Below are positions 49,500-52,334 of a stretch of DNA of 64,000 nucleotides, piece after piece. The notes under the pieces are model-generated. The model had not been told where the DNA came from and did no database searches. It was given only the letters and a program-made list of their open reading frames with translations. This DNA comes from Acidimicrobiia bacterium (GTDB taxonomy: Bacteria; Actinomycetota; Acidimicrobiia; IMCC26256; PALSA-610), in the NCBI GenBank assembly GCA_017882905.1, contig JADGOO010000106.1:1-64000 (forward strand), read 5' to 3'. Made by a program: the position numbers and the translations under genes. Positions within the stretch are counted from its first letter, which is position 1, and each line of letters starts with the position of its first letter.

Positions 49500-50006
49500 A
49501 TGACCAACTCCGATCCCTGGCGCGTCCCGGTCACCGATCTGCTGTCGCGGATCGGCGCCCAGCGCGCGGTCGAGATCTCCGCGCCCGCCGGCGAGCTCGG
49601 TACGGGGGCGGCCACGGTCAGCGACGGTACGCCCGTCGAGCTCGAAGTGCTGCTCGAACGGGTCCCGGAAGGCATCGTCGCCCGGGGCCGCGTCCACGCC
49701 ACCTGGCGAGCCGAGTGCAGCCGCTGCCTCGCCCCCGCGACCGGCGAGATCACCGTCGGAGTCGACGAGCTGTTCGAGCGCGAGCCGGTGCCCGGTGAGA
49801 CCTACCCGCTGACGGCCGAGGCCCTCGACCTCGAACCGCTCGTGCGCGATGCCATCGTGCTCGAGCTGCCGGGCGCGCCGTTGTGCCGCGACGACTGCGC
49901 CGGACTGTGCGCAGTGTGCGGCGTTGACCACAACCTCGTCACGTGCGACTGCACGGTCGACGAATCCGACCCGCGCTGGGCGGCCCTCGGGTCGCTCGAG
50001 CTCTGA
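49500..50006 (+). CDS. DUF177/YceD family protein
   Basis: AECSRCLAPATGEITVGVDELF, CRDDCAGLCAVCGVDHNLVTCDC; located before rpmF. Confidence 0.92.
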   Translation: MTNSDPWRVPVTDLLSRIGAQRAVEISAPAGELGTGAATVSDGTPVELEVLLERVPEGIVARGRVHATWRAECSRCLAPATGEITVGVDELFEREPVPGETYPLTAEALDLEPLVRDAIVLELPGAPLCRDDCAGLCAVCGVDHNLVTCDCTVDESDPRWAALGSLEL

Positions 50007-50030: not shown

Positions 50031-50210
50031 ATGCCCGTCCCGAAGCGGAAACTGACCCGGTCGCGCACTCGGTCGCGCCGGTCGGCGAACTTGCGCCTGG
50101 AGCCCGCGGCGCACTCGCTGTGCCCGAACTGCGGTAACTCGAAGCTGCCCCACACCGTCTGCGCGAACTGCGGGTGGTACCGCGGTCGCCAGGTCATCGA
50201 CGTCGAGTAG
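50031..50210 (+). CDS. rpmF: 50S ribosomal protein L32 (59 aa; absent from the supplied ORF track)
   Basis: Own translation: MPVPKRKLTRSRTRSRRSANLRLEPAAHSLCPNCGNSKLPHTVCANCGWYRGRQVIDVE. Confidence 0.95.
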   Translation: MPVPKRKLTRSRTRSRRSANLRLEPAAHSLCPNCGNSKLPHTVCANCGWYRGRQVIDVE

Positions 50211-50226: not shown

Positions 50227-51228
50227 TTGCGTCCGGTCATCGCGATCGACGCGATGGGCGGTGATCGCGCGCCCCACGAGATCGTGGCCGGCGCGCTGGC
50301 GGCGCGCGACGCCGTGGGTGTCGACGTGCTGCTCGTCGGCGACGACGCCGCGGTCCGCGCCGAGCTGCCCGGTGGCGAACCTCCCGCCGGCGTGAGCCTG
50401 CTGGCCACCACCGAAGTCATCGCCATGCACGAAGACCCCGCCGCGGCGGTACGGGCCAAGCGCGACAGCTCGATCGTGCGCGCCGCCGAGGTCGTGCGTG
50501 ACGGCCGGGCCCACGCCTTCGTGGGCGCAGGCAACACCGGCGCCACGATGGCCGCCGCGCTGTTGCGCTTCGGCCGCATTCGGGGCGCGGCCCGCCCGGC
50601 GATCGCCGTGCCGATCCCGATCGCCGGATCCGCTCGCCGCCAGCTGCTCGTCGACGGCGGCGCCACCGTCGATCCGCAACCTGAGTGGCTCGTGCAGTGG
50701 GCACATCTCGGTCGCGCCTACGCCCGGCTGCGCCTCGGCGTCGAGAACCCCACGGTCGGGCTCCTGTCGAACGGCGAGGAAGCGGGTAAGGGCGATGCGC
50801 TGCGCAAGGCCGCGTACGCACGCTTCGAAGCCGAGGTGCCGGAGTTCGTCGGCAACGTGGAAGGCCGCGACCTGTCGCGTGTCGCGGCCGACGTGATCGT
50901 CACCGACGGTTTCACGGGCAACGTCGCGCTGAAGACGATCGAGGGGGCGATGATGGGCATCGCCGGGCTGGTGTTCTCCGTGCTCGACGAACCCGACTTC
51001 GCCGAGATCTCCGGGCCCATCAAGCTGCGCCTCCTCGAAGCCGCGTCCGATCTGCTCCCCGACAACACGGGTGGGGCGCTGCTGCTTGGTGTCCAAGGCG
51101 TCTGCGTGATCTCGCACGGGTCGTCGTCGGCGAACGCGATCGTGAACGCGGTGCGCGTGGCTGCCGCGTGCGTGGAAGCCGATGTCGTCGAATCGCTCGC
51201 CGGCTCGTTGCGCCGAGCGGCGGTCTAG
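50227..51228 (+). CDS. plsX: Phosphate acyltransferase PlsX
   Basis: IAIDAMGGDRAPHEIVAGAL, GNTGATMAAALLRFGRI. Confidence 0.95.
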   Translation: MRPVIAIDAMGGDRAPHEIVAGALAARDAVGVDVLLVGDDAAVRAELPGGEPPAGVSLLATTEVIAMHEDPAAAVRAKRDSSIVRAAEVVRDGRAHAFVGAGNTGATMAAALLRFGRIRGAARPAIAVPIPIAGSARRQLLVDGGATVDPQPEWLVQWAHLGRAYARLRLGVENPTVGLLSNGEEAGKGDALRKAAYARFEAEVPEFVGNVEGRDLSRVAADVIVTDGFTGNVALKTIEGAMMGIAGLVFSVLDEPDFAEISGPIKLRLLEAASDLLPDNTGGALLLGVQGVCVISHGSSSANAIVNAVRVAAACVEADVVESLAGSLRRAAV

Positions 51229-51231
51229 GCG

Positions 51232-51543
51232 ATGCCCGCCGAGACCCACAGCCATGGTCACGGCCTCGACCGCAGCGACGTGAGCGCGCTCGTCGTGGAA
51301 CGCCTCGCCGAGCTCCTCGGCCGCGACCCCGACGACCTTCGGCCCGAGCTGCGCTTGCGGGACGACCTCGACGCCGACGATCTCGTCGTGCTCGATCTCG
51401 TGGAGGCCGTGGAACAAGAGCTCGGCGAGCGCATGGTGGGCCTGCACCTCGACGACGACGATCTCGTGGAGCTCGAGACGGTCGGCGAGCTGATCGACTG
51501 CGTGTGCGATCACCTCGGCGTCGCCGGCGGGTCGGGCCGGTGA
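51232..51543 (+). CDS. Acyl-carrier-protein-like protein lacking the phosphopantetheine serine
   Basis: DDLDADDLVVLDLVEAVEQELGERM aligns to ACP helix II, but DSL is DDL; position between plsX and rnc. Confidence 0.85.
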   Translation: MPAETHSHGHGLDRSDVSALVVERLAELLGRDPDDLRPELRLRDDLDADDLVVLDLVEAVEQELGERMVGLHLDDDDLVELETVGELIDCVCDHLGVAGGSGR

Positions 51544-52334
51544 GCGACATCGATCTCACCCAGCTCGCCGCCCGCGCCGAGCTCGAGCGCGTGCTCGGCG
51601 TGACGTTCCGAGACCCGTCGCTGCTGCTGCGATCCCTGGCCCACCGTTCCTGGTGCGCCGAGAACGGCGAGGTGGCGAGCAATGAGCGGCTCGAGTTCCT
51701 CGGCGACTCCGTGCTCGGCCTGGTGGTCACCAACCACGTGTTCGCGCATTTCCCCGGTCTTCCCGAAGGGCAGCTCTCCGAGGTGCGTGCCGGCGTCGTG
51801 AACGCCCGCACGCTCGCCGAGGTCGCATCCGAGCTGGCGCTCGGCGATCACCTGCTCCTCGGCAAGGGTGAAGACGCCGCCGGCGGCCGGACCAAGCAAT
51901 CGATCCTGGCCGACGCGCTCGAGGCCGTCATCGCCGCCATCTACCTCGATGCCGGCTTCGCCGAGGCCGAGCGGTTCGTGATGCGGGTCCTGTTGACCCG
52001 TATCGACGAGGCGGCCAGCGGACCGGGTGGGCGCGACTACAAGACCCGGCTCCAGGAGCTGGCCGCCTCCCGATCGCTCGGCCGGCCCCGGTACCACGTG
52101 CGCGACGAGGGGCCCGACCACGCCAAGACATTCTTCGCCACCGTGCTGCTCGACGGCGCCCCATCGGGGGAGGGCGAGGGCCGTTCCAAGAAGGAAGCCG
52201 AGCAGGCCGCGGCGTGGATGGCCCACGAGCACCTCACGGGGGCGTCCGCTTCGGGGCTACCGTCGCCCTCGCCGTCGGGCGACCAGCACGCGCTCGACAC
52301 GGCGATCGGTTCTGAGGAGAGTGCGGGCACATGA
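51540..52334 (+). CDS. rnc: Ribonuclease III
   Basis: NERLEFLGDSVLGLVV, C-terminal dsRBD DYKTRLQELAASRSLGRPRYHV. Confidence 0.96.
   Translation: MSDIDLTQLAARAELERVLGVTFRDPSLLLRSLAHRSWCAENGEVASNERLEFLGDSVLGLVVTNHVFAHFPGLPEGQLSEVRAGVVNARTLAEVASELALGDHLLLGKGEDAAGGRTKQSILADALEAVIAAIYLDAGFAEAERFVMRVLLTRIDEAASGPGGRDYKTRLQELAASRSLGRPRYHVRDEGPDHAKTFFATVLLDGAPSGEGEGRSKKEAEQAAAWMAHEHLTGASASGLPSPSPSGDQHALDTAIGSEESAGT

Follow-up and report, generated by a model that had tools for sequence, protein, structure and literature searches.

A serine-less acyl carrier protein homologue of the rnc locus in Acidimicrobiia and its possible partnership with RNase III

Genes for acyl carrier protein (ACP) and RNase III are neighbors in many bacteria, and we know of no reason for this pairing. 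The locus described here raises the question in a particular form, namely what an ACP-like protein encoded between plsX and rnc might do when aspartate occupies the position of the serine that carries phosphopantetheine. A first-pass annotation had suggested that the protein may be a non-modifiable mimic of ACP, docking on PlsX, on RNase III or on enzymes of fatty acid synthesis (FAS) as a regulator or scaffold. Our search of open-access papers returned no direct report on ACP with RNase III, on Ser-less ACPs or on acpP-rnc operons. The window, by which we mean the whole stretch of 64,000 nucleotides analyzed, carries the following features.

49500..50006, + strand: yceD/DUF177, large ribosomal RNA subunit accumulation protein (PF02620, 88.6 bits)
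50031..50210, + strand: rpmF, ribosomal protein L32, 59 aa (read from the sequence)
50227..51228, + strand: plsX, phosphate acyltransferase (TIGR00182, 269 bits), the usual but inconstant upstream neighbor
51232..51543, + strand: Ser-less ACP-fold protein, ATG start, 103 aa, net charge -20 (ORF, PF00550, AlphaFold2, PDB fold matches)
51232..51249, + strand: N-terminal MPAETH motif, near-invariant among subfamily members and modeled as disordered
51379..51381, + strand: Asp50 codon GAT, in the place of the phosphopantetheine Ser and at the very start of helix II (alignments, model)
51424..51444, + strand: GERMVGL (consensus GERTVGF), subfamily-marking insert that separates helix II from helix III (alignments with canonical ACPs and with the family)
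51540..52334, + strand: rnc, RNase III with catalytic domain and dsRBD (TIGR02191, 234.7 bits; PF14622, PF00636, PF00035)

An ACP homologue between plsX and rnc

The ACP-like ORF is intact and tightly packed, starting after a 3-nt gap behind the plsX stop (51228) and overlapping the GTG start of rnc (51540) by 4 nt (GTGA), just as the first-pass annotation had described. PF00550 recognizes its product with 35.2 bits (cut-off 20.8), and many NCBIfam ACP models match it, all below their own cut-offs. Sequence matches to ACPs in the PDB reach 1.5e-7; in the top match, ACP 2ehs, DLGADSLDVVEL of the window protein is aligned to DLDADDLVVLDL. The AlphaFold2 model (mean pLDDT 79.7) contains the four ACP helices at residues 14–29, 50–65, 75–79 and 84–95, and ACPs are its best Foldseek matches in the PDB with TM scores (target) of 0.84–0.90. 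Codons 51361–51420 read DDLDADDLVVLDLVEAVEQE, and both the alignments and the model, in which helix II begins exactly at Asp50, place the GAT codon in the phosphopantetheine-Ser column as first proposed. The net charge of -20 compares with -15 for the AcpP that serves FAS in this genome, so acidity alone does not set the window protein apart. The product of 51232–51543 is thus an ACP homologue that lacks the defining serine at the N-terminus of helix II, and it should therefore not carry the annotation of a functional acyl carrier.

Orthologues were recognized by the N-terminal MPAETH and the GERTVGF insert, and are present in 52 of the 58 genomes of the order and across much of the class Acidimicrobiia. 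Among 297 genomes sampled across the phylum, just four outside the class gave matches at the threshold used, scoring ∼70–74 bits. Three of these four genes adjoin rnc, and two of the three also adjoin plsX; these three rnc-linked ACPs have the Ser and do not start with MPAETH, and the insert is absent from the stretch shown. The arrangement plsX-acp-rnc is thus old, and its hallmark-bearing version belongs to Acidimicrobiia. The N-terminus of the window protein had been called His-rich and atypical. This needs correcting, as the start is no peculiarity of this copy: MPAETH is near-invariant across orthologues of the class, and only the S-H behind it is typical of this family. In most of the order (f4, f8 and other families; for example loci L028 and L164) the plsX stop lies inside the ACP start, ATGCCGGCTGA, giving an 11-nt overlap by which the GCT codon of MPAETH is held constant, where the window has its 3-nt gap. 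MPAETH is not a by-product of this overlap, since loci that lack the overlap retain the motif with freely varying synonymous codons, which indicates that selection acts on the amino acids. Two genomes of family f17 (G200 and G201; L181, L182) have Ser-type orthologues in which the MPAETH start is lost and EDRAEGF replaces GERTVGF.

Loss of the serine and a separate FAS-II carrier

Among distinct orthologues that start with the motif, the residue at the Ser position is Ser in 106, Asp in 16 and Glu in 2; one additional Asp genome (G015) was read separately. The Ser-less set includes every genome of f1, the family to which the window belongs (14 in all, each with Asp), which answers the first-pass suggestion to check relatives for fixation. 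Outside f1 it has five members with Asp or Glu, spread over four families of the order: the two f6 genomes and single genomes of f9, f11 and f13. Asp in 14/14 family genomes excludes a sequencing error or a chance event at this codon. Only acidic residues were seen in place of the Ser among the orthologues, with no Ala, Gly or Thr. As the Ser codons are mostly TCN, from which Asp or Glu is two base changes away, this exclusive use of acidic residues hints that selection has favored a negative charge or a helix cap at the Ser position. In a tree of PlsX plus RNase III, the sister of f1 is the Ser-bearing f14 (support 97/96) and f11 pairs with the Ser-bearing f16 (80/81). The best tree requires five changes at the Ser position; a single common origin is borderline rejected (p-AU 0.046), and is not rejected in subsets without f11 or without f1. 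The Ser was thus probably lost more than once, as judged from these trees. A different change is found in G115 (family f4; L029 / L055), where the Ser is kept and VRSTLL replaces ADSLAL, so that the Asp before the Ser has become Arg; this is probably another loss of modification.

A standard AcpP with a DSL motif (...LDADSLDLVELVM...) is encoded elsewhere in the same genome (L168:8561-8806) in the cluster fabD-fabH-acpP-fabF. FabF of this cluster scores 523.6 bits, the FabD match of 217.9 bits lies under its cut-off, and FabH was placed by its position, without a profile. The role of housekeeping FAS-II ACP fits this protein and not the window protein, and given a normal DSL-bearing carrier the window copy is best regarded as a specialized paralogue. 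The second ACP with a DSL motif that the first-pass annotation had recommended searching for is therefore present, so the refuting case named there, a genome without another ACP, does not apply. Together with the family-wide loss of Ser, this AcpP lends good support to the claim that the window protein is no conventional acyl carrier. Its presence also rejects the idea of a sole ACP with a new attachment chemistry. AcpP was likewise found in the Ser-less genomes searched (58–85% identity), with two exceptions. G199, which is 74% complete, has AcpP only as a fragment at a contig end. In G020, an f1 genome, AcpP, FabF and FabD were not found, although two congeners have them; a single assembly gap could possibly account for the absence of these clustered genes. 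Since G020 nevertheless keeps the Ser-less gene, a FAS role for its product seems unlikely from gene content. In three genomes of family f2 (G003, G174 and G197) AcpP and FabD were not found, and AcpS and a Ser-type rnc-linked ACP are kept. FabF was searched for in G003 only, where it too was not found; this genome (clade g8) is a single 2.46-Mb contig and retains the rnc-linked ACP-like protein with its Ser. The three are possibly a lineage without FAS-II.

Could the Ser-less protein still carry an acyl group at another residue? AcpS is encoded in the window's genome, and the protein has further Ser and Thr residues near its disordered ends. AcpS, however, recognizes Asp-Ser-Leu where helix II begins; helix II of the window protein has no Ser, and none of its other Ser residues lies in a DSL context. 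With a canonical AcpP in the genome as well, we consider attachment elsewhere extremely improbable. A side observation concerns an AcpS-type phosphopantetheinyl transferase with a carrier-protein domain fused C-terminally (L170:8465-9157, - strand, G000:C198; PF01648 54 bits, PF00550 29 bits), which adjoins an ORF resembling an acyl-CoA dehydrogenase.

In the Ser-less genus g4, dN/dS is 0.027–0.09 for the ACP-like gene, compared with 0.15–0.20 for plsX and 0.035–0.10 for rnc, and purifying selection on the Ser-less gene is strong there. Values rise to 0.11–0.38 in f1 pairs that are more divergent, but part of these are near saturation at synonymous sites. A paralogue that is decaying without function would account for the lost Ser and for the faster evolution relative to the FAS AcpP (∼45–60% versus 58–85% identity to the copy of the window genome). 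It is nonetheless very improbable, as dN/dS is 0.03–0.09 in close pairs, the gene is intact in 14/14 family genomes with MPAETH and GERTVG retained, and the Ser is replaced by acidic residues only; the dN/dS values by themselves reject a pseudogene.

Candidate partners at the rnc locus

In ∼165 loci with a contig reaching that far (some genomes contribute two), rnc always adjoins the ACP-like gene, and plsX is separated or missing in nine. Furthermore, in two genomes from different f1 genera, G139 (346 aa) and G198 (345 aa), a single ORF encodes the Ser-less domain together with RNase III, and the ACP and RNase III domain sets both score above the Pfam cut-offs. The linker contains no ATG, GTG or TTG, and the codon-position G+C bias continues in frame. 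The assemblies with these fusions are drafts, and frameshift errors in both are conceivable. The two fusions and the unbroken adjacency are the genetic linkage looked for in an accessory subunit of RNase III, and on these grounds RNase III is the most likely partner of the Ser-less protein. Distance covariation of the ACP-like protein gives a partial r of 0.29 with RNase III and 0.23 with PlsX, with a subsample interval of the difference that includes zero, and so does not discriminate between the two. A place next to rnc is the ancestral state in the phylum, plsX-acpP-rnc being found in another class too, and could persist by operon inertia. Two of the neighbors, yceD and rnc, have ribosome and rRNA functions, and a study of DUF177 linked yceD to 23S rRNA accumulation and noted its clustering with rnc, rpmF, plsX and acpP (PMC5049393).

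Several other roles were weighed against this evidence. As a non-modifiable ACP mimic the protein could instead dock PlsX and regulate or scaffold acyl-phosphate formation, its closeness to rnc being a matter of operon order only. PlsX normally uses acyl-ACP as its substrate, and plsX lies directly upstream in most loci, often with the 11-nt overlap. Nevertheless, the nine loci in which plsX is separated or absent have kept rnc, and the fusions are to RNase III and not to PlsX, leaving this reading unlikely. A prosthetic-group-free ACP might also serve some other partner encoded nearby, such as SMC, in the way that AcpP serves MukB: smc lies ∼2 kb downstream within the window and apo-AcpP activates MukB (PMC8602292). 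SMC is not MukB, though, neither a fusion nor a constant adjacency with smc came to light, and we regard this as quite improbable. Finally, the ORF could act mainly as a translational coupler of plsX and rnc with the protein secondary, a role for which the 4-nt GTGA overlap with rnc and the 11-nt plsX overlap in most of the order would be suited. Purifying selection on the protein, an MPAETH that is retained with free synonymous codons, and a domain that is retained in the fusions all speak against it, and we give coupling hardly any credence. Of the three targets that the first-pass annotation had named for its docking mimic, the genome evidence thus favors RNase III, with adjacency to PlsX dispensable and a FAS role unlikely.

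We therefore return to RNase III. Whether the window protein is a prosthetic-group-free, acidic ACP-fold partner of RNase III, specialized as a paralogue of the rnc locus, appears to us evenly balanced on present genomic evidence. The fuller proposal is more tentative and falls somewhat short of that: Acidimicrobiia would have a dedicated apo ACP-fold subunit of RNase III, derived from the ACP of the plsX-rnc operon and locked in the apo form by repeated Ser to Asp/Glu changes, that controls dsRNA or rRNA processing. In the first of these two readings the specialized paralogue would have given up its prosthetic group, and the apo, highly acidic four-helix protein would bind RNase III, in cis where the two are fused. 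Once bound it might tune the folding, dimerization or dsRNA binding of RNase III, probably in rRNA processing. The docking face would be the acidic face of helix II with Asp50 serving as helix cap and permanent negative charge, and MPAETH and the GERTVG loop could make additional contacts. In Ser-keeping relatives the protein may still receive its modification and could thereby tie RNase III to lipid status, a switch that would be fixed in one state in the Ser-less families. ACPs are known to act without the prosthetic group, as apo- and holo-AcpP are equal in stimulating the ATPase of E. coli MukB (PMC8602292) and membrane-derived oligosaccharide synthesis uses ACP with no need for phosphopantetheine, according to work cited in PMC6158461.

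The Ser-less lineages separate two possible reasons for the pairing of acpP with rnc, as lipid carriage is gone and proximity to RNase III stays. If the partnership is real, they offer a clean lipid-free case for asking what the ACP fold does for RNase III, and would suggest that membrane synthesis is linked to RNA processing in Ser-bearing relatives. They suggest a carrier fold turned into a helper of RNA processing.

Comparison with known ACP systems

With type II AcpP (PF00550; acpP-rnc order of Firmicutes and some Actinomycetota) the window protein shares the four-helix fold, the acidic helix II, the ADxL motif frame and the place between plsX and rnc. It differs by Asp in place of the phosphopantetheine Ser, the MPAETH start and the GERTVG insert, and its lineage has a separate AcpP for FAS-II and, in relatives, the RNase III fusions. 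Mitochondrial ACP, with its places in complex I, LYR proteins and mitoribosome assembly, provides a precedent for the ACP fold as a structural subunit, and ribosome assembly intermediates with such an ACP are among the PDB matches of the window protein (7am2 and 7aoi). Those complexes generally use the acylated phosphopantetheine arm, whereas the window protein cannot carry an arm at Asp50. Mycobacterial AcpM, whose complexes with EmbA-EmbB and MmpL5 are among the top structural matches, is likewise a stable subunit of larger complexes but keeps its Ser, belongs to FAS-II and has membrane partners. The E. coli AcpP-MukB pair is similar in that ACP is a protein partner with no enzymatic role, whether or not it carries phosphopantetheine (PMC8602292); there, however, the protein is the housekeeping AcpP with its Ser kept, and the partner is an SMC-type protein.
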